A stretch of DNA of 64,000 nucleotides from contig NZ_JAAIKA010000002.1 of the NCBI RefSeq assembly GCF_011752015.1, positions 1 through 64,000 on the forward strand, given 5' to 3'. The stretch's first letter is position 1. Every line of letters starts with the position of its first letter. Both the position numbers and the translations under genes were made by a program. The DNA is from Canibacter zhoujuaniae. Its GTDB lineage: Bacteria > Actinomycetota > Actinomycetes > Actinomycetales > Microbacteriaceae. Below, piece after piece: positions 28,876 to 53,490 of this stretch. The notes under the pieces were generated by a model. That model was not told the origin of the DNA and ran no database searches. It saw only the letters and a list, made by a program, of their open reading frames with translations.

Positions 28876-29925
28876 ATGCGCGTTTTACTGACCGGCGGCG
28901 CCGGCTACATTGGCTCACACACGGCTGTTGTTCTCGCCGAACGCGGGCACGAAGTCGTGATTGTTGATGACTACTCAAATGCTCACCCAGAGGCGGTGCG
29001 GCGCGTTGCTGAAATTGTGGGCAAAGCTGTGCCGATGGTGGAGGCGGATCTTGCGAACCAAAAGGCCGCCGCACAAGCGTTTACAGATGCCGCTGCGGCT
29101 CTTGGCGGTGAATTAGACGCGGTGATCCACTTCGCGGGTTTAAAAGCTGTTGGTGAGTCCGTTGCGCAGCCAACCCGCTACTACCGCACAAACATTAACT
29201 CAACACTAAACGTGCTCGATCAGATGCGTGCGCACAGCATCAATCGCTTGGTTTTCTCAAGCTCAGCAACGGTCTACGGAGACCCTGAGACGAACCCGAT
29301 CGCTGAGACACAGCAGGTTGGGGTCGGTCTCACAAACCCCTACGGCTGGTCCAAGGCAATGAATGAGCAGATTATTCGTGATGCGGCGGTTGTGCAAAAG
29401 GGGTTCAGAGCGGTGCTGTTGCGCTACTTCAACCCGGTGGGTGCCCATGAATCTGGACGCATCGGCGAAGACCCGAGCGGTATTCCAAACAATCTCATGC
29501 CGTTTGTCGCGCAGGTTGCTGTGGGTAAAAGAGAGCAGCTGTCTGTTTTCGGCAGCTCATACCCAACACCTGATGGAACGGGCGTGCGTGACTACATCCA
29601 CGTTATGGATCTTGCTGAGGGGCACGCCGCAGCGCTAGAGGCTGCGGGCGAGGGGGTTGCTGAATACAATCTCGGGAGCGGCAAAGGATCGAGCGTGCTT
29701 GAGGTTGTTGCAGCTTTTGAACAGGCAAGCGGCAGGCCTGTGCCGTATCAGATTGTGGACGCCCGGCCCGGTGATGTGGCAGAGTGTGTGGCGGATCCGC
29801 GGAAAGCTAACTCCGAACTAAACTGGCAGACTACCCGCTCACTAGCTGACGCCTGTGCTGACTCATGGCGTTGGCAGTCGCAAAACCCGAACGGCTATGC
29901 AAAAGACGGGGAGGTGACTGCATAA
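28876..29925 (+). CDS. galE: UDP-glucose 4-epimerase GalE
   Basis: 349 residues, extended short-chain dehydrogenase. NAD-binding TGGAGYIGS (6-14), catalytic Ser in SSSATVYG and Tyr 156/Lys 160 in NPYGWSK. Interconverts UDP-Glc and UDP-Gal (or the GlcNAc pair). With Glf (50939) this provides UDP-galactofuranose for wall glycan. Leaderless start. Its stop overlaps the next ATG by one base (TAATG). Confidence 0.95.
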   Translation: MRVLLTGGAGYIGSHTAVVLAERGHEVVIVDDYSNAHPEAVRRVAEIVGKAVPMVEADLANQKAAAQAFTDAAAALGGELDAVIHFAGLKAVGESVAQPTRYYRTNINSTLNVLDQMRAHSINRLVFSSSATVYGDPETNPIAETQQVGVGLTNPYGWSKAMNEQIIRDAAVVQKGFRAVLLRYFNPVGAHESGRIGEDPSGIPNNLMPFVAQVAVGKREQLSVFGSSYPTPDGTGVRDYIHVMDLAEGHAAALEAAGEGVAEYNLGSGKGSSVLEVVAAFEQASGRPVPYQIVDARPGDVAECVADPRKANSELNWQTTRSLADACADSWRWQSQNPNGYAKDGEVTA

Positions 29926-31313
29926 TGGCCACAAGCCAGCTCGCAGCGCAGTTGGAACAACCGTTAAGGTATCCAGATACCAATTCAGAACCGTTTATGA
30001 CCAAGCGCGCTCGCTGGTTGGTTGTGCTCGGCTTCCTGCTGCCGGGCACCGCGCAGATTACCGCGGGTAAAAAGAAACTAGGCCGCTTCGGGCTGGCAGC
30101 TTCAATTTTTATGTGGTCTTTACTGGCGCTTGCCGCGCTGGGTTTCTTTCTCTCGCGCAGTTTTCTTATAAACCTACTCACGAACACTTGGGTGCTGCTG
30201 GTAATCCAGATACTGCTGATCGGTTATGCGGTGCTGTGGCTGGTGTTGGGTCTTGACACGCTGCGAATGGTGCGCGTGCGCAAGGTGAAGAGCGCGTGGC
30301 GACTCCCCGTTGTGCTGCTCTCACTCGTGCTGACAGTTGTGCCAGCGCTGGGAGCCGGGTGGGCGGCCAACACTATTAACGCCGGGCGCGGGCTTATCAA
30401 TGATCTCTTCCAAAACCACCAAGCCGCGGTGGAACCGGTGGACGGGCGCTACAACATTCTGCTGCTCGGCACCGACGCTGGCGCAGATCGTGAGGGTATT
30501 CGTCCTGACAGTATTTCGTTAGTCAGCGTTGATGCTGAAACTGGGCAGGCGCTAATTATCGGTCTGCCGCGCAATCTTGAACACGCGCCGTTCCCAGAAT
30601 CCAGCCCGATGCACACCCTGCACCCGGACGGCTTTGGTATCGGCACCTACTGCTACACCGGTGAGTGCTATCTGAACCACATCTACACCGAGGTGCAGGA
30701 GTTCACTCCAGAGCTCTACCCGAAAGCAACTAAACGAAGCTCGACTCCGGGCATTGAGGGCACAAAAGATGCCGTTGAGGGCGCCACAGGTTTGCATGTG
30801 CAGTTCTATGTGCTTATCAACATGGACAGTTTTGAACGTTTGATTGATGCTCTCGGCGGAGTGGATATTAATGTGAAAGAGCCTCTGCCGATCGGTGGTG
30901 ATGCTTACGGGAACGGTGTTGAAGGATACGTTGAAGCGGGGCAGCGCCGACTGAGCGGCTTTGAAGCAATCTGGTATGCGCGCAGCCGCTATGGCTCAGA
31001 CCGTGGTGACTATGACCGCATGGAGCGCCAGCGCGAACTGCAGGCGGCTATTGTGGCGCAGATGACACCGGAGAATGTGCTGCTGCGTTTCCAGGAGATT
31101 GCTGCCTCTGGCAGCTACATTGCAGACACCGATATTCCAAAATCGATGCTCGGCACATTTTCTGAACTTGTTATGAAGACAAAAGAATATCCAGTGCAGC
31201 GTCTGGAACTGGTGCCGCCAGCAGTAGACACCGCTGATCCAGACTATGCGACTGTGCAGCAGCTTGTGCGAGACGCGGTTGCAACTGCCTCAGCACCAGA
31301 AGAAACAGAGTAG
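29925..31313 (+). CDS. LytR-CpsA-Psr (LCP) family glycopolymer ligase
   Basis: 462 residues from ATG 29925, chosen for GAGGTG 8 nt upstream and the TAATG junction with galE. Three hydrophobic segments lie in the first 150 residues; the extracellular LCP domain then starts NILLLGTDAGADREG and continues with RPDSISLVSVD, IGLPRNL and LIDALGGVDINV, with the conserved Arg/Asp set (GFEAIWYARSRYGSDRGDYDRMERQREL in parts). Family enzymes move glycopolymers from polyprenyl-pyrophosphate to peptidoglycan. Its place in the cluster fits attachment of the polysaccharide made here. Confidence 0.92.
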   Translation: MATSQLAAQLEQPLRYPDTNSEPFMTKRARWLVVLGFLLPGTAQITAGKKKLGRFGLAASIFMWSLLALAALGFFLSRSFLINLLTNTWVLLVIQILLIGYAVLWLVLGLDTLRMVRVRKVKSAWRLPVVLLSLVLTVVPALGAGWAANTINAGRGLINDLFQNHQAAVEPVDGRYNILLLGTDAGADREGIRPDSISLVSVDAETGQALIIGLPRNLEHAPFPESSPMHTLHPDGFGIGTYCYTGECYLNHIYTEVQEFTPELYPKATKRSSTPGIEGTKDAVEGATGLHVQFYVLINMDSFERLIDALGGVDINVKEPLPIGGDAYGNGVEGYVEAGQRRLSGFEAIWYARSRYGSDRGDYDRMERQRELQAAIVAQMTPENVLLRFQEIAASGSYIADTDIPKSMLGTFSELVMKTKEYPVQRLELVPPAVDTADPDYATVQQLVRDAVATASAPEETE

Positions 31314-34589: not shown

Positions 34590-35399
34590 CTATCTGCGGT
34601 TGTGCTCCCGCATGAACTCGACAGCCTCGTCAATCGGGCCGTCAAACGCTTTGCGGCCGTGATCTAGCACGATCCCGCGCTCGCAGAGACGCTTCACCTG
34701 CTTTGCATTGTGGCTCACAATAAACATGGTGGTGTTGCGTTCCTTCAGCTCTTCCAGCCGATCCATACACTTATTAGCGAAATTTGCGTCACCGACAGCA
34801 AGCACCTCGTCAACAAGCAGCGTGTCTACCTGTGTGTGGATCGCTACTGCGAAACCGAGTCTTGCGTACATGCCGGAAGAATAGAATTTTACTTCAGTGT
34901 CGATGTATTCACCGATCTCAGCGAACTCTTGGATCGCATCGAATTTCGCATCAACCTCTTCGCGGCTCATACCCAAAATTGCGGCGTTGAGATACACATT
35001 TTTGCGCCCGGAAAGATCCGGGTGAAAGCCCGCGCCAACCTCAAGCAGGCCGCCCAGTGTGCCGCGGGTGCGCACCCATCCGCCGTCGGGTTGCATAACA
35101 CCCGAGAGCAGCTTTAGGGTGGTTGATTTGCCTGAACCGTTGTGCCCCATAACCGCGACGGACTGCCCTTCGGGAACGGAAAATGTGAGGTCTTTTAATG
35201 CCTCGAATTTGCTGGATGTTTGCTTGCCACGAATCTTTGCAACAAAGGTTTCCTTCATTGACTGAGTGTGTTTAATTGCAAAGGTTTTGGTGACTCCGTT
35301 GAGCACAATTCTCGGGGGAGAAGTGTCGCCGGGCCGCGGTGCCTCCATCGGATTTGGGAGGTTTGGATCAACAACCGGGAAGTTAGAGTCGCTGTGCAA
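34590..35399 (-). CDS. wzt: Polysaccharide ABC exporter ATPase, Wzt/TagH type
   Basis: 269 residues. Walker A GHNGSGKST, LGGLLEVGAGFHPDLSGRKN, the atypical signature YSSGM and DTLLVDEVLAVGDANF are typical of O-antigen and teichoic acid exporters. I chose TTG 35399 because GGAGGG lies 5 nt upstream; ATG 35348 has no Shine-Dalgarno and the upstream frame to 35435 is inside the permease gene. It overlaps the permease gene by 17 bases. The carbohydrate-binding C-terminal domain of some Wzt proteins is absent, suggesting export without terminal-cap recognition. Confidence 0.92.
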   Translation of the reverse strand: MHSDSNFPVVDPNLPNPMEAPRPGDTSPPRIVLNGVTKTFAIKHTQSMKETFVAKIRGKQTSSKFEALKDLTFSVPEGQSVAVMGHNGSGKSTTLKLLSGVMQPDGGWVRTRGTLGGLLEVGAGFHPDLSGRKNVYLNAAILGMSREEVDAKFDAIQEFAEIGEYIDTEVKFYSSGMYARLGFAVAIHTQVDTLLVDEVLAVGDANFANKCMDRLEELKERNTTMFIVSHNAKQVKRLCERGIVLDHGRKAFDGPIDEAVEFMREHNRR

Positions 35400-36339
35400 A
35401 GATACCCTCCATCTTACGGAATGACAGCTGCCCAAAGAACAGGCTCAGAATCGAAATACCAACTGCTGCGAGAATATAGATCGACATATGCCCTGGACGT
35501 TCAGCGCCTGGTGATATTGGTAACCAAATACCATCGTGTATCAGCTCGATCGCAACGGTTACCGGATTTGACATATAGATGTGGTAGAACCAACTCGGTG
35601 CAATGTCGCGAATCATTTGGAAGCTGTAGAGCACCGGGCTGGCCCAGGTGGAATACATAAGAATTAGGTCAACAATATTCTTTGCATCGCGGTAAATAGC
35701 GTTGATACCGCCGAAGAACATGCCGACACCCAGCCCAAAGACGAGCAGTAGCAGCACGCCGCCGAGAAGCGATAAGAGGGCGGTGAAGCTGAACTTCCAG
35801 CCAAAGATAATTGCGATTATGAGCAGCAGCGAGGCTTGTGGCAGAAAGTGCACCATTGCCACCAGGGTTGACGAAACAGGGAAGAGCTCGCGCGGCAGAA
35901 AAATTTTGCGCACAAGGCCTCTGTTGTCGACGATACTCGAGGTGGCGTTTCTGAGAATTTCAGAAAATAGGCCGACCCCAACGATGCCGCAGAACAGGTA
36001 GATGGGATAGAAGTCGATGCCGCGAGTTGCGCCGAACACCAGCCCCACTACGAGGTAGTACATCAAAAACTGTGCTGCTGGTCGAATATACGACCACACC
36101 CAGCCGAGCACGGAACCGTAATACCGTGTCGCGATTCCTTTATTGGTCAGGAGGGAGAGCAGATAGCGGTTTTTGAAGACGTCTATGAGGCCGCGGCTGT
36201 GACCGGGGCGGCGAAACTCAGGGTGGTTTTTATACTGCGCATAGTGTGCAGACATTGCCTGCTCACGCTGCTCAGCAATTTCTGGTCGCAGCGAGGGAAT
36301 GGTTGCCTCGTATGAGTATGATTCAGTGGAGTCGCTCAT
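35383..36339 (-). CDS. wzm: Polysaccharide ABC exporter permease, Wzm/TagG type
   Basis: 318 residues, ABC-2 membrane family. A long hydrophilic N-terminus of about 75 residues is followed by six membrane segments, with YYGSVLGWVWSYIRPAAQFLMYYLVVGLVFG and NAIYRDAKNIVDLILMYSTWASPVLYSF in parts as the typical stretches. With the ATPase it moves lipid-linked polysaccharide across the membrane. The 5' neighbour, an LpxA-like gene, ends 5 nt before its ATG. Confidence 0.92.
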   Translation of the reverse strand: MSDSTESYSYEATIPSLRPEIAEQREQAMSAHYAQYKNHPEFRRPGHSRGLIDVFKNRYLLSLLTNKGIATRYYGSVLGWVWSYIRPAAQFLMYYLVVGLVFGATRGIDFYPIYLFCGIVGVGLFSEILRNATSSIVDNRGLVRKIFLPRELFPVSSTLVAMVHFLPQASLLLIIAIIFGWKFSFTALLSLLGGVLLLLVFGLGVGMFFGGINAIYRDAKNIVDLILMYSTWASPVLYSFQMIRDIAPSWFYHIYMSNPVTVAIELIHDGIWLPISPGAERPGHMSIYILAAVGISILSLFFGQLSFRKMEGIFAQRL

Positions 36340-36344
36340 CGTGC

Positions 36345-37064
36345 CTACCCAACCTGCATAACCTTATCGCTGGCACGCTCAGCCCACCAGTCAACGAGTT
36401 CTTGCAGTGATTCGAGTTTTTGTTGCAGCTCTGCTGCTGTTAGGGGTGTCTGGTTTTGATAGGCGAGCGCGAGAGTCTCACTCAGTTCTGGTGCGAACCC
36501 CGCACGCTGAAGACCAACAGTGTTAATGCCTTTGATGCGTGGTGGGGTGCCGAAGACTTTCGCGAACGGCGGCACATCCGCGGTTACCGGTGTGCCCATG
36601 CCGACCATTGCGCCGCCGCCGATCACCCTGCGCTGATGCACGACCGCATTCATGCCAATGTTGACCCGCTCGCCAATTTCGCAGTGCCCGCCAATCGAGA
36701 CACCCGCGGAAACGGTGGTGCCATCACCGATCTGTACGTCGTGCGCCAGATAGGCACGATTTAGGATCCAAGCATCTTTGCCCACATATGTTGGGCGGTG
36801 GCTCCCCTGATGAATAACCGCAAGTTCGCGCACCACCGCACCGGCTGCGATAACCACGCCAGCTCCACCGGTCTGGCCGGCCCAAGCGGCGTTTTGCGGC
36901 AGAGAGGAAATTTCTGCGGGCGCACCAATCTGCGCCCCCGATCCAATAAAGACGTTGTCGCCGATGGTTGCAGGGCCGAGTATCACCGCGCCGGGGCCGA
37001 TTTTCACATTCTGACCGAGCGTGACGTTTTCGCCGATATATGCGCTTTCAGCTATATGGGACAT
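36345..37064 (-). CDS. LpxA-like left-handed beta-helix N-acyltransferase
   Basis: 239 residues made of hexapeptide repeats ([IV]G-type turns) followed by a short alpha-helical C-terminus. It aligns by eye with LpxA rather than with small sugar acetyltransferases: LNRAYLAHDVQIGDG, VSIGGHCEIGE, NAVVHQRRVIGGGAMVG, ADVPPFAKVFGTPPRIKG-INTVGLQRAGF. The LpxA catalytic His is kept (His 108 in AHD), as are those equivalent to His 144 and 160 (127, 143); E. coli LpxA His 122 is Tyr here. No lipid A exists in this organism, so the acceptor is probably a UDP-3-amino sugar made by the adjacent Gfo/Idh enzyme and the DegT aminotransferase. The acyl group is unknown (acetyl most likely). Confidence 0.82.
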   Translation of the reverse strand: MSHIAESAYIGENVTLGQNVKIGPGAVILGPATIGDNVFIGSGAQIGAPAEISSLPQNAAWAGQTGGAGVVIAAGAVVRELAVIHQGSHRPTYVGKDAWILNRAYLAHDVQIGDGTTVSAGVSIGGHCEIGERVNIGMNAVVHQRRVIGGGAMVGMGTPVTADVPPFAKVFGTPPRIKGINTVGLQRAGFAPELSETLALAYQNQTPLTAAELQQKLESLQELVDWWAERASDKVMQVG

Positions 37065-37066
37065 AG

Positions 37067-38053
37067 TTACATCAATTCTATGGTTTTACCAGACTTGCCT
37101 GACTCTAAAGCGGCTTCTACGATGCGCAGAGTCTCAAGACCTTCACGCAGGGTGACATGATCCTGACGAACGCCCAGAATCGCATCACGGAAAGCTTCAT
37201 GCTCGTTCTTTAGCGGTTCTGTCTTATTCAAAGCAAAACGGGTTACGGTGCCTTCGCTGACGCCGCGGAAACTGGTAACGGCGTGCCAGTCTCCCTCGCC
37301 AACACCGTTTTCGTAGTATGTGAGGTCAGCGGTGAGGGTGTCGGCCACCATAGCGCCACGCTCACCTGTCACAACGACGGTGCGCTCCTTAAACGGAGTG
37401 AGCCAGTTAACGATGTGGTTGACCATAATGCCGTTTTCAAGCTTGCCGGTGATTGCGACCATATCCTCATGTTCGCGCCCCGAGCGATGGGTTGTTTCTG
37501 CCGCAACATGTTGGTAAGCAGACTGAGCAAGCCACGCGGTGAGATCAATATCGTGACTGCCAATATCTTTCACAACACCAACGTCTGCAATGCGGACTGG
37601 GAAAGGCCCCTGACGGCGGGTTTGGATCTGATACACCTCGCCAAGCTCACCGTCTGCTATCCGCTTACGCAGCTCAATTAGCGCCGGGTTGAAGCGTTCA
37701 ATATGGCCGACAGCTGCGGTGAGATTAGCCTCTTCAAACGCAGTCACCAGCCGCTCTGCCGCTTCTAAGTTGTGCGCGACCGGCTTTTCAATCAAAGAGT
37801 GCACCCCGGCAGCGGCGAGCTTCAGCCCAACGGCTTCGTGGAATCCGGTCGGCACGGCAACAACCGCTACTTCGATACCGGCGCTGATCAGGCCGTCAAC
37901 AGAGTCGAAGAGTGGCGTGCTACCAGCGACATTGTGCGGATCGCCCATCGCGTCGGCAACAGCAACTAGCTCGGCACCTTCGAGTTCGCGGATGACGCGG
38001 GCGTGGTGACGTCCCATCATACCTAAGCCGATGAGGCCGTATTTTAATGCCAT
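37067..38053 (-). CDS. Gfo/Idh/MocA-family nucleotide-sugar dehydrogenase (WlbA/WbpB/GnnA-like)
   Basis: 328 residues from ATG 38053 (GAGGAA upstream; the frame to 38104 reaches into the neighbouring gene). Rossmann motif GLIGLGMMGRHHARV, EKPVAHNLEAAERL with the catalytic-site lysine, GHIERFNPA and DIGSHDIDL. The RFNP motif marks enzymes that oxidise C3 of UDP-GlcNAc (GnnA) or UDP-GlcNAcA (WlbA/WbpB). It is two bases upstream of the LpxA-like gene and so co-translated. Needs a DegT aminotransferase as partner, found at 41351. Confidence 0.87.
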   Translation of the reverse strand: MALKYGLIGLGMMGRHHARVIRELEGAELVAVADAMGDPHNVAGSTPLFDSVDGLISAGIEVAVVAVPTGFHEAVGLKLAAAGVHSLIEKPVAHNLEAAERLVTAFEEANLTAAVGHIERFNPALIELRKRIADGELGEVYQIQTRRQGPFPVRIADVGVVKDIGSHDIDLTAWLAQSAYQHVAAETTHRSGREHEDMVAITGKLENGIMVNHIVNWLTPFKERTVVVTGERGAMVADTLTADLTYYENGVGEGDWHAVTSFRGVSEGTVTRFALNKTEPLKNEHEAFRDAILGVRQDHVTLREGLETLRIVEAALESGKSGKTIELM

Positions 38054-38094
38054 GTTATTCCTCTTTTCTTCGTGCCTTAATGCTAGCGCTACGA

Positions 38095-40197
38095 TCAGTT
38101 GCAACCGGTAATTTCGTAGAGTTTAGCGTCTCCTTCTGCATCAATTTGCGTCAGGATCGGAGACCTATCCAAATAGTTGAGACCTGGGAAGTCTTCCGGA
38201 TTAATGGGTTTTTGCCTTGGAATCATTTCACCGTCAAACTCGGTTGCGGTAGTTTCGACAGGAAGGGTGAGGGTGATAGGTTTTACAACTTCACCATTCT
38301 CATCAACCTCTGTTTTAATAGCGTGCAGAATTCCCTGGTGGATGAGATCCTCTACCTCATCTTGATCTCGAACCTCATAGATCACAGGACCGAAGTCGAG
38401 CATATGGGTAATTCCGAGTTGGCTGGTGAGAGTGCAAGCTTCTGCGGCTGGCAGAGTAGCAAATTCGTGTGCGAGCTTAACATTCTCAGGTGTGGTTTGG
38501 AAGCGCAGGTGTTTGAACAGAGTGTCACGGTTGCTAATTGCCTGCGCGAAGCTCGTTCCCGTCCAAGGGTTACCCGCGATCAGAGCATCCTCAGGAAGCT
38601 CATCAGGCAGCCGCTTAAGGAGCTGCAGCTCATCATCCGATACAAAAGCGATATTTTCCGGATCAGCGAAGGTCGAGTATATGTCGTGCAGCTGATTGTA
38701 TATTGAGGCGCCTTTGCCAGCGCTAAACAGCAACCCAAACACAACTGCAATAGCGATAGCGGGCTGCATTGATTCTCGCCAGCCCGCTACAGGCTTAAGG
38801 TCCGCTGCACTGCTGAGCTTACCAATTATCCACCCGACAGTGATTGCCGCAAGCGGGATAGCGAAAATTGGAATATAAGCCGCTAGGCGATGCGCATCGT
38901 TGTACCAAATTCCTGTAATGAATGTGCGCAGAGGGTCTGGGAAGCTGACCGCCACAATATAAAGGGCGCCTGAGATAGCCCAAGAGACAATGAGCCAGAT
39001 ATGTTTGCGCATCAGGATTAGCAACAGTAGGCCGCTCACCGTCAGTAATGAAATGGGGACAGCAACCGCATTGTTATTTAGAACGGTGTTAAAAAGGAAC
39101 TGCGCAAGCGCTATGAATGGTGTTCTATTAAACTGCCTGTCGTTGTCTCCAGTTCTGAGCACCACGAATGCGACTGTGAGAGCTGACACAACCGCAATAG
39201 TTAACGCACCGACAGCGTATTTCTCTCGAGCATCAGCGTATTTGAAGCTGCGGATTAGTGCCGTAACCAGCAGTGGCAGCATAAATATGAGCGCAGCGAT
39301 AGCAGAGCTAGGGTGAGCGAAAGCAGACGCCCCCAAGGCACCGGCGGCAAAAACTAGATACCCGATTTTAGTGTTTGATGTGCGGTTTGGATAGATGTTT
39401 AGCGCTCGCAGCACAGCACCGAGCGCAATGGGGATAAGAGCGGTCCCGAGCAGAGAAGGGTAGAGGATCCCCCAGGAGAGGAGATGGTAGGGGAAGTTCG
39501 GAAATAAGCCAGCGAGCAGAGCGGTTGCGAACTGGTATCGTTTTCCGTTTGGCAAAATCGGTGAGACAAAGAACAGAATTGCTACCGGCCAGACAATGCC
39601 TGCCACAGCAAAAGTTAGCCCGTTGGTGGCGGCAGCAACGCTTGCGCCGCTCAACTGGCTTATCAACGCCACAGTCGCGTGCCAGAGAGTTGGATAGAAG
39701 GATCCAGTCGTGCCGTCAGTGCTGGTCAGTGAGAAATTAAGGGGGGAGGGGCTAGCGCCCTCCAAAATATGGTTGACAGCGTTTAGATGGAAGAGGTTGT
39801 CGAAGCTGCGTGAGAAATTTTCTGGATCTCCAATGTTGTTAATAACGCTTTGTGAGAAAACCGCCAGGGTGACAAGCGGCGGAACAACAGCTAGCAGAGT
39901 GACAGATACGGGACGGGGATCCTGCGACGCATAATCTGAGTGTGTCAGCCAGCGCCTAAACGGCAGCAGAGCTATTCCGACTATGACTCCCACGATGAGA
40001 GGGAGCAAAATATTCCATTTGACGGCAAATGCACCTGCAGCTAGTGTGCTTATTCCAATTACTGCGAATGATGCTGCAATGCTGCACGCCCAAAACGCAA
40101 TGCCTGTCAGGCGCAGTGAGATTGCTGTGAGCAAACCGGGGATAGTGATAACAGCAATACTTACTATGAAAATTAGTCCGAAAGCGAGCCAGCTCAC
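38095..40197 (-). CDS. Large multi-span membrane protein, DUF6541-like (putative GT-C glycosyltransferase)
   Basis: 700 residues with about 14 hydrophobic segments followed by a soluble C-terminal part of about 180 residues. An extracellular loop SFDNLFHLNAVNHILEGASPSPL and later WHATVALISQL resemble the first-loop region of GT-C enzymes that use polyprenyl-phosphate sugars. GTG start with AAGGGTGAT upstream. It lies downstream of a DUF2304 gene and a dolichyl-phosphate-mannose-synthase-like gene, the usual company of such proteins. Family identification by overall look, no strong motif. Confidence 0.7.
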   Translation of the reverse strand: MSWLAFGLIFIVSIAVITIPGLLTAISLRLTGIAFWACSIAASFAVIGISTLAAGAFAVKWNILLPLIVGVIVGIALLPFRRWLTHSDYASQDPRPVSVTLLAVVPPLVTLAVFSQSVINNIGDPENFSRSFDNLFHLNAVNHILEGASPSPLNFSLTSTDGTTGSFYPTLWHATVALISQLSGASVAAATNGLTFAVAGIVWPVAILFFVSPILPNGKRYQFATALLAGLFPNFPYHLLSWGILYPSLLGTALIPIALGAVLRALNIYPNRTSNTKIGYLVFAAGALGASAFAHPSSAIAALIFMLPLLVTALIRSFKYADAREKYAVGALTIAVVSALTVAFVVLRTGDNDRQFNRTPFIALAQFLFNTVLNNNAVAVPISLLTVSGLLLLILMRKHIWLIVSWAISGALYIVAVSFPDPLRTFITGIWYNDAHRLAAYIPIFAIPLAAITVGWIIGKLSSAADLKPVAGWRESMQPAIAIAVVFGLLFSAGKGASIYNQLHDIYSTFADPENIAFVSDDELQLLKRLPDELPEDALIAGNPWTGTSFAQAISNRDTLFKHLRFQTTPENVKLAHEFATLPAAEACTLTSQLGITHMLDFGPVIYEVRDQDEVEDLIHQGILHAIKTEVDENGEVVKPITLTLPVETTATEFDGEMIPRQKPINPEDFPGLNYLDRSPILTQIDAEGDAKLYEITGCN

Positions 40198-40223
40198 AAT
40201 ATCACCCTTAAAGTCTGCTGCGA

Positions 40224-40565
40224 CTACTTAGATTGGTAGCGCTTGTTTGCCTCGGACAGTGCCATGGCACGCGCGAGCTTGGTAACCCGCGCGTCACTTC
40301 TAGCTTTTGCGCGAATTACAGCGCCTCCGAATAGCACTGCGGCAATAATAAAAAGATACAGTAGCAAATCAGTGCCGCGACCGACACCTAGAAAATTGGC
40401 TATTTTCGAGATTAAGCCTGGAAAGAGAATCGAGACGATTGCGAGCAGCGCGAAAGCTAATGCTGCAAGTCTTTTGATGGCGAGCTGTTTCTCGCCACGG
40501 AGTGCTCTGAGAGTGAATACTACGCCGAGTATCACCGCAACGATCAGAAGAATCTGAATTGCCAT
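40224..40565 (-). CDS. DUF2304 family small membrane protein
   Basis: 113 residues with three hydrophobic helices and a basic C-terminus. Pattern IQILLIVAVILGVVFTL...RGEKQLAIKRLAALAF...VGRGTDLLLYLFII is that of DUF2304, which is nearly always next to a polyprenyl-phosphate glycosyltransferase. Its ATG overlaps the stop of the GT2 gene by one base (TAATG). Likely anchors or assists the GT2 enzyme at the membrane. Confidence 0.85.
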   Translation of the reverse strand: MAIQILLIVAVILGVVFTLRALRGEKQLAIKRLAALAFALLAIVSILFPGLISKIANFLGVGRGTDLLLYLFIIAAVLFGGAVIRAKARSDARVTKLARAMALSEANKRYQSK

Positions 40566-41251
40566 TAACGCACCACCAAGTCAATCAAGATATTTACTGA
40601 GTTTAAGAGTGACTGACCCTTAGCTTTTGAATAGCTGGTGTAGAGCACCTCGACAGGTTCTTCAGCCCAGGGTAGATCGCACTTTCCGAGCTGAATAATA
40701 ATTTCAGTGCCGTGCGCCATGCGATCCTGTTTGAGCTCGATTTTTTTAAGCGCGTCGCGGCGAATTAGTCGTAACCCGTTGTGCGCATCGGTGAGTTTCA
40801 TGCTGGTGGCAAGATTCGTAACGAAAGCAGCGGTTTTCAAAACGAGTTTTTTAAGTGCTCCGGGTTGGGTGCGCGTATCCAGGAATCTAGATCCGACTAC
40901 AATCGCTAAATTTTCACGTCGCGCCCGTTCGAGCATGCGCAGCGCGTCCTCAACCCGGTGTTGACCGTCAGCATCAAAGGTAATGACGTAGTCTGCGTTT
41001 TGCTGCAGCGCAAATTCAAACCCGGTTTGCAGGGCGGCGCCCTGGCCGAGGTTAATTGGGTGATTGATCACGAAAGCGCCCGCCTGTTTTGCGAGCGTTG
41101 CTGACGCATCCGTGCTGCCGTCGTCGACACAAATAACGTGTTTAAAATGCTGTTTTAACTCTCCAATAACTTCAGCTATGACCGTGGCTTCGTTGTAGAG
41201 CGGGATCACCACGAAGGTGTCGTGATTGAGTGCACTCTGGGTCATCGGCAT
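40565..41251 (-). CDS. Polyprenyl-phosphate glycosyltransferase (GT2, DPM1-like)
   Basis: 228 residues. FVVIPLYNEATVIAEVIGEL, VDDGSTDASA, NLGQGAALQTGFEFAL and the DXD motif TFDADGQHRVEDAL identify dolichyl-phosphate-mannose-synthase-like GT2 enzymes; late RLIRRDAL fits too. No C-terminal membrane helices, so the DUF2304 partner may supply the anchor. Two in-frame ATGs, 41251 and 41245; neither has a clear Shine-Dalgarno. Makes a lipid-phosphate sugar for the GT-C-like protein at 38095. Confidence 0.88.
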   Translation of the reverse strand: MPMTQSALNHDTFVVIPLYNEATVIAEVIGELKQHFKHVICVDDGSTDASATLAKQAGAFVINHPINLGQGAALQTGFEFALQQNADYVITFDADGQHRVEDALRMLERARRENLAIVVGSRFLDTRTQPGALKKLVLKTAAFVTNLATSMKLTDAHNGLRLIRRDALKKIELKQDRMAHGTEIIIQLGKCDLPWAEEPVEVLYTSYSKAKGQSLLNSVNILIDLVVR

Positions 41252-41350
41252 GTGTCTATTCTCTCAGAGAGCGATTCAAAACGTTGTAAATTCGCAATAT
41301 AGGGGTAATCTCGCTAGTGAATACTCATTATTTATGAAAGGTTGGGCGTT

Positions 41351-42460
41351 ATGACCGACTTTATTCCAGCGGCAAAACCGCTTATCGGTGATGAAGAGCG
41401 TGCGGCGGTAGATCGTGTGCTGCGCAGCGGCATGATTGCGCAGGGGCCAGAGGTTGCGGCCTTCGAGGAAGAGTTCGCTGAGCACTTTGTGCGCGGTCGT
41501 GCAACAGTAGCGGTCAACAGTGGCACAAGCGGCCAGCACCTTGGTCTGCTCGCCAGTGGGATCGGCCCCGGTGATGAAGTGATCGTGCCATCATTCACTT
41601 TTGCGGCTACGGGTAACTCTGTCGCACTTACGGGCGCAACCCCTGTTTTTGCTGATATTGAGCCGGATACATTTACGCTCGATCCGGCAAGTGTGCGCGC
41701 TGCGGTGACCGAACACACTAAGGGGATCATGCCGGTGCACCTCTACGGTCACCCATTCATGGTCGATGAGATTCAGGCAATCGCAGACGAGTTTGACCTA
41801 CAGATTTTTGAAGATGCGGCGCAGGCGCACGGTGCTTCCCTAAACGGCCGCCCGGTTGGCACCTTCGGTTCTTTTGCAATGTTCAGCCTCTACCCAACTA
41901 AGAACATGACCAGCGGTGAAGGCGGCATGGTGAGCTGTGCGACTGAAACAATCGCGCGTAATGTGCGTTTGCTGCGTAATCAGGGAATGGAAACACAGTA
42001 CGCGAACGAGGTTGTCGGCTTCAACGCTCGCATGACAGATATTCACGCGGCAATAGGCCGTGTGCAACTGACAAAGGTTGATGGGTGGACCGAGCAGCGA
42101 CAGCGCAACGCACGCTTTTTGAGCGATGCGCTCGCAAACGTGCCGGGTGTGACCGTGCCGGTTGTGCGCGAGGGAGCTGTGCATGTGTACCATCAGTACA
42201 CAATCCGTGTTGATGCGGCCGAACGCGATCGCTTGCAGCGTGCGCTGCGTGAAGAGCACAATGTTGGCACAGGTGTTTACTACCCGATCCCGAATCACCG
42301 TCTGCCATCGCTTGAGAAGTTTGCACCCGGTTTAGAGCTGCCAGAAACCGAGAAGGCGGCTGCAGAGGTGCTCTCACTGCCTGTGCACCCATCTCTATCG
42401 CAGGCGGATTTGGATCGGATCGTATCCGGAGTAAGCGCCGTGCTCGGGGCTGGCGCTTAA
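41351..42460 (+). CDS. DegT/DnrJ/EryC1/StrS sugar aminotransferase (WbpE/GnnB-like)
   Basis: 369 residues, PLP-dependent. NSGTSGQHLGLLASGIGPGDEVIVP (parts), FEDAAQAHGA and the PLP lysine at 184 in SLYPTKNMTSGEGGM. The LYPTKNM-GEGG form is that of enzymes acting on UDP-3-keto sugars (WbpE, GnnB) in O-antigen and related pathways. ATG 41351 with AAAGG about 9 nt upstream; TTG 41342 is less likely. It probably aminates the 3-keto product of the Gfo/Idh enzyme encoded on the other strand. Shares a palindromic TTAA with the stop of the convergent gene. Confidence 0.9.
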   Translation: MTDFIPAAKPLIGDEERAAVDRVLRSGMIAQGPEVAAFEEEFAEHFVRGRATVAVNSGTSGQHLGLLASGIGPGDEVIVPSFTFAATGNSVALTGATPVFADIEPDTFTLDPASVRAAVTEHTKGIMPVHLYGHPFMVDEIQAIADEFDLQIFEDAAQAHGASLNGRPVGTFGSFAMFSLYPTKNMTSGEGGMVSCATETIARNVRLLRNQGMETQYANEVVGFNARMTDIHAAIGRVQLTKVDGWTEQRQRNARFLSDALANVPGVTVPVVREGAVHVYHQYTIRVDAAERDRLQRALREEHNVGTGVYYPIPNHRLPSLEKFAPGLELPETEKAAAEVLSLPVHPSLSQADLDRIVSGVSAVLGAGA

Positions 42461-49573: not shown

Positions 49574-50863
49574 ATGAAAATTGCTGTTGTTGCTACCGGA
49601 AAAATCGGTCTCCCGCTTGCCACTCAGTATGCCTCGATGGGGCATGAGGTGGTTGGTGTTGATGTTAACCAGGCGCTGGTTGATTGCATTAATCGGGGGG
49701 AAGAACCGTTTCCTGGTGAGGCTGGTTTGGCAGAGAAACTTGCCGAGCAGGTGCCTGCCGGTAAGTTGCGCGCAACAACAGATTACGCTGCCGCAATTCC
49801 GGGCGCTGACGCCGTTGTTATCGTGGTGCCGCTGTTAGTGGATGAGGAGACCTGGCAGCCGGACTTTGGCTGGATGGACGCTGCAACGCGCTCTCTTGCA
49901 GAAAACCTCACTCCCGGCACACTTATTTCCTATGAAACAACGCTGCCGGTGGGCACCACACGCGGTCGCTGGATGCCAATGATTGAAGAGATTTCAGGTC
50001 TGAAAGAGGGCGAAGACTTCTTCCTGGTTTTCTCTCCTGAGCGTGTGCTGACCGGCCGAGTCTATGCTGATCTGAAGAAATACCCGAAGCTTGTTGGCGG
50101 TCTGAGCGAGGCCGGCACCAAAAAAGCGATCGAGTTTTACGAGTCGGTGCTGACATTTGACGAGCGGCCAGATCTCGCACAGTCAAACGGCGTGTGGGAT
50201 ATGGGCACCGCCGAGGCGGCCGAGATGGCGAAACTTGCAGAAACCACATACCGCGACGTGAATATCGGTCTGGCGAATCAGTTCGCGCGCTATGCAGACA
50301 CTGTTGGGGTTGATGTTTACAAGGTGATCGAGGCATGCAATTCGCAACCGTTCAGCCACATTCACCGCCCGGGTATTGCTGTTGGTGGGCACTGCATCCC
50401 TGTTTATCCGCGACTGTATCTATCAACAGACCCGGCTGCAGATATTGTGCGCACCGCCCGTAACTACAACGCTACGATGCCAAGTTATGTGGTTGATCGG
50501 GTGCAGCAGATAGTTGGGGATCTGACGGGTCAGACGGTTGTTGTGCTCGGCGCTTCCTACCGCGGTGGGGTGAAAGAAACCGCTGTTTCGGGCGTTTTTC
50601 CAACAGTTGCAGAGCTAAAGGCGCGAGGCGCAAATGTGCTTGTGCACGATCCGCTGTTTAATGCGGCAGAGCTTGCTGCGCACGGCTTTGATGCATACGA
50701 GCTCGGTAATCCGGTTGATGTTGCAATTTTGCAGGCGGATCACGCTGAATACCTCGACCTGACCGCTGCGGATCTGCCGGGCATCAAACTCTTCGCTGAC
50801 GGCCGCAACTTCACCAAACCTGAAGCGTGGGTCGGCACCCCACGTATCGTTATTGGCGGTTAA
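49574..50863 (+). CDS. UDP-N-acetyl-hexosamine 6-dehydrogenase (WbpA/WecC-like)
   Basis: 429 residues of the UDP-glucose/GDP-mannose dehydrogenase family. NAD site VVATGKIGLPLATQYA (a G-K-I-G-L-P form), SYETTLPVGTT, active-site Lys 220 in EMAKLAETTYRDVNIGLANQF and catalytic Cys 274 in GGHCIPVYPR. The NTYRDVNI-like stretch is that of the UDP-GlcNAc and UDP-ManNAc 6-dehydrogenases rather than UDP-Glc enzymes. Two-fold oxidation at C6 gives a UDP-N-acetylhexosaminuronic acid. With the Gfo/Idh, DegT and LpxA-like enzymes it may make UDP-2,3-diacetamido-uronic acid. Confidence 0.88.
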   Translation: MKIAVVATGKIGLPLATQYASMGHEVVGVDVNQALVDCINRGEEPFPGEAGLAEKLAEQVPAGKLRATTDYAAAIPGADAVVIVVPLLVDEETWQPDFGWMDAATRSLAENLTPGTLISYETTLPVGTTRGRWMPMIEEISGLKEGEDFFLVFSPERVLTGRVYADLKKYPKLVGGLSEAGTKKAIEFYESVLTFDERPDLAQSNGVWDMGTAEAAEMAKLAETTYRDVNIGLANQFARYADTVGVDVYKVIEACNSQPFSHIHRPGIAVGGHCIPVYPRLYLSTDPAADIVRTARNYNATMPSYVVDRVQQIVGDLTGQTVVVLGASYRGGVKETAVSGVFPTVAELKARGANVLVHDPLFNAAELAAHGFDAYELGNPVDVAILQADHAEYLDLTAADLPGIKLFADGRNFTKPEAWVGTPRIVIGG

Positions 50864-50926
50864 ACGCTCTACGGCTATTTTTTAGGAACCTCACCGTTAC
50901 TGCAACGGAAATGATTTTTGGGCGGA

Positions 50927-52081
<1,155 letters not shown>

Positions 52082-52128
52082 CAGACACAGATAGCTGAGA
52101 TGCTTGGCTGCGCTGCTGCTAGTTATCG

Positions 52129-53490
52129 CTAAGCGGTTGTTTTGTGCGCGATTGGAACCTGACTCCATGGCACACGTACGGGCTCCTCGAAACGGCTCGG
52201 CAGCTCATAATCTAGGCGACACTTAACCGCGAGCAGCACGAGCAGCACCCAGCCGCCTTCCACCAGTAGCCTGCTCTCTGCGAGAGATTGGGTGAGCAGC
52301 GCGACAAAAACGAGCAGGGGGAACAGCGCGCTAGTTGCGTAAGGCAGCGGTGCTCCAACCCCGCGCCGTGGCTGATCAATTGCGCGGCACCACACACGCT
52401 GCAGGGTTATGAGCACGAGCACCGTGAACACCGCAAGCCCGACATAGCCAAGCTGCAGCCACACATCCAGCCAGGCGTTGTGAGCGTGCATAACCGGCAG
52501 GCCTGCCTTTTGATCGAGAGATTTAAAAGGCTCCACCCATGGAGTCCAATAGCTGACCCAGCCCCAACCAAACCAGGGGTGCTCAGCAGCAAGTGCCGTA
52601 ACTTTCGACCAGATTTCAAGCCGTCCAGTTAAATCGGGGCTCTTCCCGAGGAGCGGTAGCCAAACTGCACGCCCGAAGATTCCAAAGGCAATTACCCCCG
52701 CAAGGAGTATGCCGCCGACGGAATATACAGGTGCGCGGCGCACACCAGCGCGGCGTGCCCACAGCGCAAAAAGAAGAGTGCATGAAACCACTAGCAGCGC
52801 GATCCAAACGGTTGCAGAGCGGGTGAGTGCCAGCACCCCAAGCGAAACAAACACCCAGAACCAACCGTTAGCCGGTCGCACCAGGCCGCCACGCAATTGG
52901 ATTGCGAAAACTATTAAGCCGAGCAGCGCGAGAAAACCGAGCAGGGCAGAGTTTGCCACCACACCCTGAATAGGGCCGCCCTCAAACAGCAGTGAGCGAC
53001 TCCAATACAGGAGTTTTGAGACTTTTCCGGAGTCGGGCACGTCTACGAAACCCATAAAAATAGGCTCACCAAAGACCATCTCAACGAACAGCTCAAATAG
53101 CAGAGAGAGCCCGAGCAGGTAGCGCAGCGCTGTGCCGAGTGTGCGCAGCACCTCGTGCCACGTCAGGATAGAGGCCAATATCACCGCAATCACAGTGGTC
53201 GCGAGCTGCGCGAGAAACCCGAGCACCGTTTCAAAACGGTAAGCAGACCAAGTCACCGACAGCAGTGCGAGCAGCAGGAAGGTGAACAGCGGCTTGGGCA
53301 CCCTGTACCACTTGAAATTAGCCGGTTTCAAACGCACAAAGAGAACAACACCGACTGCAATAAGCACAACAGCTGAGCCTAAATAGAGCGGCCAGCCGCC
53401 GATACTGCGCAGCGCGTTAGAGCCGAGCTGGTGCAAAAACACAAACACCGCGAAAGCGCTGATCCCTATCCGAGTGCGAGTGTCTGACAT
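52129..53490 (-). CDS. O-antigen ligase/polymerase family membrane protein (Wzy/WaaL-like)
   Basis: 453 residues with about ten to twelve hydrophobic helices and one larger extracellular loop. LTRSATVWIALLVVSCTLLFAL and, in the loop, GRLEIWSKVTALAAEHPWFGWGWVSYW with HAHNAWLDVWLQLGYVGL, the pattern of Wzy_C-type polymerases and ligases. Either polymerises the repeat units or attaches glycan to a carrier. Leaderless minus-strand promoter TACGAT. Last gene of the polysaccharide region. Confidence 0.87.
   Translation of the reverse strand: MSDTRTRIGISAFAVFVFLHQLGSNALRSIGGWPLYLGSAVVLIAVGVVLFVRLKPANFKWYRVPKPLFTFLLLALLSVTWSAYRFETVLGFLAQLATTVIAVILASILTWHEVLRTLGTALRYLLGLSLLFELFVEMVFGEPIFMGFVDVPDSGKVSKLLYWSRSLLFEGGPIQGVVANSALLGFLALLGLIVFAIQLRGGLVRPANGWFWVFVSLGVLALTRSATVWIALLVVSCTLLFALWARRAGVRRAPVYSVGGILLAGVIAFGIFGRAVWLPLLGKSPDLTGRLEIWSKVTALAAEHPWFGWGWVSYWTPWVEPFKSLDQKAGLPVMHAHNAWLDVWLQLGYVGLAVFTVLVLITLQRVWCRAIDQPRRGVGAPLPYATSALFPLLVFVALLTQSLAESRLLVEGGWVLLVLLAVKCRLDYELPSRFEEPVRVPWSQVPIAHKTTA

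Follow-up and report, generated by a model that had tools for sequence, protein, structure and literature searches.

An LpxA-fold protein encoded among wall-glycan genes of Canibacter zhoujuaniae is a predicted N-acetyltransferase of amino sugar nucleotides

What does a protein with the fold and the catalytic residues of LpxA do in a bacterium that does not make lipid A? Canibacter zhoujuaniae, whose 1.47-Mb genome has its close relatives in Leucobacter and other Microbacteriaceae, encodes such a protein at positions 36345 to 37064, reverse strand, of the window (the whole stretch of 64,000 nucleotides that was analysed). The reading frame is confirmed as real and specifies 239 residues. It starts 2 bp past a Gfo/Idh oxidoreductase gene and stops 5 bp ahead of an ABC permease gene, the LpxA-like gene and both neighbours being spaced as in an operon. 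In agreement with the premise of an earlier note that this bacterium lacks lipid A, searches of the whole genome returned no match to LpxC (PF03331) or to LpxB (PF02684), the genomic partners of LpxA, and the control genomes were positive for both. Our literature search found no publication that describes LpxA-like N-acetyltransferases from Actinobacteria.

Domain, model and structure matches mark the product as a predicted LpxA-fold N-acetyltransferase. Pfam detected hexapeptide repeats (Hexapep, 1e-27) and the LpxA C-terminal domain PF13720 (37.3 bits versus a cut-off of 24.5), to which no other protein of the genome matched. The LpxA models of NCBIfam were the best and spanned residues 4-222, but they scored below their cut-offs (158 versus 226 bits and 150 versus 231 bits), so that the protein misses the curated LpxA equivalog threshold. 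The NeuD model reached 103 bits versus a cut-off of 160.8, with its best stretch confined to residues 70-175, and a NeuD/PglD identity was rejected because the N-terminal nucleotide-binding alpha/beta domain is missing, the predicted model beginning directly in the beta-helix. This model, computed with AlphaFold2 from a 57-sequence alignment (mean pLDDT 96), was compared with solved structures using Foldseek and VIA-align. LpxA structures came first (Z about 30, 1.8-2.1 Å over approximately 228 residues, C-terminal helices included), followed by the Psychrobacter cryohalolentis protein Pcryo_0615 (PDB 8e62; Z 25.7, 1.7 Å, 181/183 residues) and, further down the matches listed, by LpxD (about 23), QdtC (20.1) and WlbB (3mqg; 19.6 over 159 residues). 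PglD and NeuD folds do not appear among the 50 fold matches listed, which says nothing either way. The ranking of LpxA above WlbB and QdtC indicates that the fold is LpxA-type rather than WbpD- or NeuD-type, and the whole length is matched better by LpxA than by any acetyltransferase among the matches listed; an LpxA-type fold in a predicted model does not, however, settle the donor.

At the level of sequence, the closest solved protein is Pcryo_0615 (99 bits with phmmer, 178 bits with a profile). A WbpD/WlbB identity was accordingly rejected, since WlbB reaches only 31 bits versus 99 for 8e62 and a Z of 19.6 versus 30 for LpxA. According to the title of the PDB entry and that of the paper it cites, from which alone we take its role, Pcryo_0615 is an N-acetyltransferase for 2,3-diacetamido-2,3-dideoxy-glucuronic acid. 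The comparison with NeuD- and WbpD-type enzymes, which the earlier note had named as a possible refutation, is thus split, the fold favouring LpxA over WlbB and QdtC and the nearest sequence being that of an acetyltransferase. In an unrooted maximum-likelihood tree, a branch with 100/100 support separated seven LpxAs from 33 actinobacterial proteins and Pcryo_0615, leaving the window protein outside the bona fide LpxA clade (n=7), and this clade was unchanged when LpxD was added. Pcryo_0615 forms a long branch and pairs with LpxD once LpxD is included; because its placement is unsure, we used only the split between LpxA and the rest.

The active site retains the catalytic His-Asp pair of LpxA, its oxyanion Gly-His and most of its UDP contacts. 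We compared 57 aligned actinobacterial family members with seven solved LpxAs (E. coli, Proteus, Burkholderia, Campylobacter, Helicobacter, Leptospira and Francisella). Our alignment agrees with the earlier note that His 108, 127 and 143 correspond to E. coli LpxA H125, H144 and H160, and that the segment INTVGLQRAGF matches LpxA, where it aligns with VNIEGLKRRGF; the LpxA-type fold, the intact catalytic dyad and the LpxA C-terminal domain put forward there were likewise all confirmed. The catalytic base H108 (codon 36741..36743, reverse strand; conserved in 57/57) is followed by its dyad partner D109, and the equivalents of H125, D126, G143, H160 and Q161 are invariant in the family. The UDP contacts are mostly kept (Q161, N198 and R204 equivalents), whereas K76 and R205 are not retained; MAFFT set the LpxA loop containing Q73, D74 and K76 in two ways, and only the absence of K76 is used here.

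The acyl channel, by contrast, departs from LpxA. In the E. coli enzyme the acyl chain runs up a cleft in which G173 and H191 cap its length, and its 3-hydroxyl group is selected by H122, Q73 and, through a water, H99 (PMC6286764). The window protein carries Y105 (36750..36752) in place of H122, the contact to the acyl 3-hydroxyl, M138 (36651..36653) in place of G155, M156 (36597..36599) in place of the hydrocarbon-ruler glycine G173 and P174 (36543..36545), part of a G-x-P turn, in place of the channel cap H191, all codons lying on the reverse strand. Across the family, in E. coli numbering, position 122 is Tyr in 53/57 members, position 152 is Asn (Ile in LpxA) in 56/57, and all 57 have a bulky M, L, I or V at 155, Met at 173 and Pro at 191. 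Pcryo_0615 has the same residues as the window protein (Y, N, M, M and P), and the seven LpxAs have H, I/V/F/N, G/S, G/H and H/K/R/P/G, respectively. Asn occurs at 152 in Helicobacter pylori LpxA and Pro at 191 in that of Leptospira, and the LpxA of Pseudomonas aeruginosa works with C10 chains although its ruler residue is Met (PMC6820557); consequently, neither M173 nor P191 alone excludes an acyl-ACP donor, and in the alignment it is the combination of five residues, not single positions, that separates the groups. Judged from these substitutions, the fat-binding channel looks blocked. The G-x-P turn of the family may be akin to the Asn-Pro turn of CoA-dependent hexapeptide acetyltransferases, which it resembles and which in Pcryo_0637-type enzymes goes cis on CoA binding (PMC8040287).

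A further difference lies in the C-terminal helical domain (residues 182-239; 36348..36521, reverse strand), which was delimited by the Pfam match and the model. The segment equivalent to E. coli residues 198-220 (helix 1-2) has a net charge of +1 to +4 in the seven LpxAs, but is mostly negative in the family (mean -1.2), net negative in the window protein by charge count and -3 in Pcryo_0615. In LpxA, ACP is assumed to dock near this segment; if it does, a segment that is no longer basic speaks against ACP as the donor. The earlier note's proposal of an acyl chain delivered by ACP is therefore not borne out for long chains, the channel positions being filled or changed as in Pcryo_0615 and helix 1-2 not being basic. 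The note's contrast with acetyltransferases, said to be devoid of this C-terminal part, is only partly correct, as the solved acetyltransferase Pcryo_0615 keeps the first helices.

The neighbouring genes suggest which sugar is involved. In Gram-negative bacteria the gnnA/gnnB pair supplies LpxA, and the gnnA-gnnB-lpxA set is known from diamino lipid A. The upstream Gfo/Idh oxidoreductase (37067..38104, reverse strand) is a predicted GnnA-like UDP-GlcNAc 3-dehydrogenase: its best NCBIfam model is NF040723, albeit below cut-off (222 bits versus 450), UDP-GlcNAc 3-dehydrogenase being the top model, always below cut-off, in both clades, and among PDB entries it is matched best by 7bvj, the GnnA of Acidithiobacillus ferrooxidans (83 bits versus 64 for WlbA 3q2k). 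The structure model of this oxidoreductase rests on 5 sequences (pLDDT 47), and its fold search served only for the title of 7bvj. A DegT/DnrJ aminotransferase (41342..42460, forward strand) has a predicted GnnB/WbpE role, based on its domain match and the presence of a relative at 69/80 loci. GnnA and GnnB together convert UDP-GlcNAc to a 2,3-diamino sugar nucleotide (PMC8036547). Downstream lie the genes for a polysaccharide ABC exporter, with Wzm as permease (35383-36339) and Wzt as ATPase (34590-35435), both on the reverse strand and recognized by Pfam and NCBIfam. The part of the conserved cassette at 38095..41251, on the same strand, encodes a DUF6541 membrane protein, a DUF2304 protein and a PpgS-like polyprenyl-phosphate glycosyltransferase; the two DUF proteins travel with such a glycosyltransferase both here and at another locus (L094:7783-9771). 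Elsewhere in the window (28876-31313 and 49574-53490) are genes for GalE, an LCP ligase, a nucleotide-sugar 6-dehydrogenase, UDP-galactopyranose mutase and a Wzy_C protein, and the wall-glycan cluster probably uses galactofuranose.

To see how far this arrangement is conserved, we surveyed the 10-kb neighbourhood of the LpxA-like gene at 80 loci from Leucobacter, Lentzea, Saccharothrix, Agromyces, Microbacterium, Cellulomonas and others. Besides the DegT gene, a Gfo/Idh gene (65/80) and a PpgS-type glycosyltransferase gene (57/80) were common, and the full Leucobacter cassette comprises DegT, PpgS, DUF2304, DUF6541, Gfo/Idh, LpxA-like, Wzm and Wzt. Six loci with full flanks have neither DegT nor Gfo/Idh nearby. 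At seven Leucobacter loci (L051, L052, L055, L057, L058, L067 and L068) the LpxA-like gene is accompanied by DegT (80-84% identical), but the genomes concerned encode no close orthologue of Gfo/Idh, their best matches to it being only about 28-35% identical; these loci have no evident candidate for the 3-keto step, which we count against our preferred explanation below. Two other genomes of the genus (G005 and G151) have no LpxA-like match, which shows that not every member of the genus carries the cassette. Some loci (L046, L048, L074, L088 and similar ones) have a second DegT gene along with an epimerase/dehydratase and a small hexapeptide protein of 141-145 residues, a set that resembles a Qdt/Fdt-like pathway for a dTDP-3-amino sugar, separate from the one discussed here.

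We conclude that the protein is very probably an LpxA-fold N-acetyltransferase that transfers acetyl to some amino sugar nucleotide for a wall glycan. Its specific reaction is probably the acetyl-CoA-dependent 3-N-acetylation of UDP-GlcNAc3N to UDP-GlcNAc3NAc for an exported glycan, although our confidence in this is distinctly lower. We infer the donor, the exact acceptor, the trimer and the fate of the sugar as follows. The linked GnnA-like dehydrogenase would oxidize C3 of UDP-GlcNAc, and the DegT enzyme would aminate the 3-keto sugar to UDP-2-acetamido-3-amino-2,3-dideoxy-glucose (UDP-GlcNAc3N). The LpxA-type enzyme, a left-handed beta-helix and presumably a trimer, would then transfer acetyl from acetyl-CoA to the 3-amine, with His108-Asp109 as the base and the amide of Gly126 as the oxyanion hole, and the product, UDP-2,3-diacetamido-2,3-dideoxy-glucose, would enter the surrounding wall-glycan cluster and ABC export.

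The nearest competing acceptor is the uronic acid UDP-GlcNAc3NA, which the enzyme would acetylate in a WbpD role within a Wbp-like pathway. We consider this unlikely, though it is the strongest of the alternatives. A nucleotide-sugar 6-dehydrogenase does lie in the same cluster (49574-50863; 308 bits to TIGR03026) and could supply UDP-GlcNAcA and hence a uronate acceptor in this genome, a point counted against UDP-GlcNAc3N; the titles for Pcryo_0615 name a uronate, and a ManNAc3NAcA teichuronic acid has been found in Streptomyces (PMC13274773). Yet a relative of this dehydrogenase occurs within 10 kb at only 4/80 loci, and Leucobacter sp. OH1287 (G088) has DegT, Gfo/Idh and the LpxA-like gene with no nucleotide-sugar 6-dehydrogenase above cut-off, which suggests that the pathway can do without oxidation at C6. 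Together with the absence of a PF02350 2-epimerase from the whole genome, these observations favour UDP-GlcNAc3N over the uronate, as does the closer match of the Gfo/Idh protein to GnnA than to WlbA. Least probable of all is the acetylation of another sugar nucleotide, for instance of a 4-amino sugar or by O-acetylation, with DegT acting at C4. The best NCBIfam models for the DegT protein are indeed the C4 aminotransferases ArnB and PseC, and Gfo/Idh is missing from some Leucobacter loci, but those matches fall far under the cut-off (275 versus 631), a 3-dehydrogenase partner is the rule and LpxA-type geometry acts at C3.

An alternative donor, the one suggested in the earlier note, would make the protein an acyl-ACP-dependent acyltransferase that attaches an acyl chain of short or medium length (C4-C10) to the 3-amine of UDP-GlcNAc3N and so yields a lipid-modified diamino sugar in the wall. 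The full LpxA fold with its C-terminal helices, the presence of GnnA-like and DegT genes close by, which also accompany N-acylating LpxAs, and the acceptance of C10 by the P. aeruginosa enzyme despite its ruler Met all speak for it; these points also count against our preferred explanation. Against it stand the five channel positions, which fit an N-acetyltransferase and not LpxA, the lost charge of helix 1-2, the position of the protein on the non-LpxA side of the tree, a genome that has neither LpxC nor LpxB, and annotated neighbours within the window among which we saw no ACP or FabZ gene. We regard acyl transfer from ACP as improbable.

Acetylation of UDP-GlcNAc3N thus remains the preferred reading, and neither its chemistry nor the fold would be new, given the solved precedent Pcryo_0615. 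The two proteins share the altered channel residues, the catalytic dyad and the LpxA-type fold, but Pcryo_0615 is shorter (189 residues), with a shortened C-terminal domain and fewer N-terminal coils, and belongs to a Gram-negative O-antigen system with, per its title, a uronic acid acceptor. With LpxA the window protein has in common the whole fold and the equivalents of H125-D126, G143, H144, H160, Q161, N198 and R204, but not H122, G155, G173, K76 or R205, nor the basic C-terminal helix segment, which here is acidic. With WbpD/WlbB (3mqg and 3mqh) it would share the 3-N-acetylation of a UDP-2-acetamido-3-amino sugar. The GnnA/GnnB/LpxA sets of A. ferrooxidans and Leptospira bring the same three gene types together, whereas here they adjoin wall-glycan export genes in a Gram-positive bacterium and the channel is acetyltransferase-like.

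Wall-glycan clusters of Actinomycetota thus contain a gnnA-gnnB-lpxA set with an altered acyl channel, in the present case in a genome that lacks LpxC and LpxB, and reuse of this set for a wall sugar would be a neat but modest finding. In the annotation of Gram-positive genomes such genes should not be named LpxA, and the signature Y122, N152, M/L155, M173 and P191 may set LpxA-fold acetyltransferases apart from LpxA. Our reading predicts that a 2,3-diacetamido sugar would be found in the walls of Leucobacter and Lentzea.
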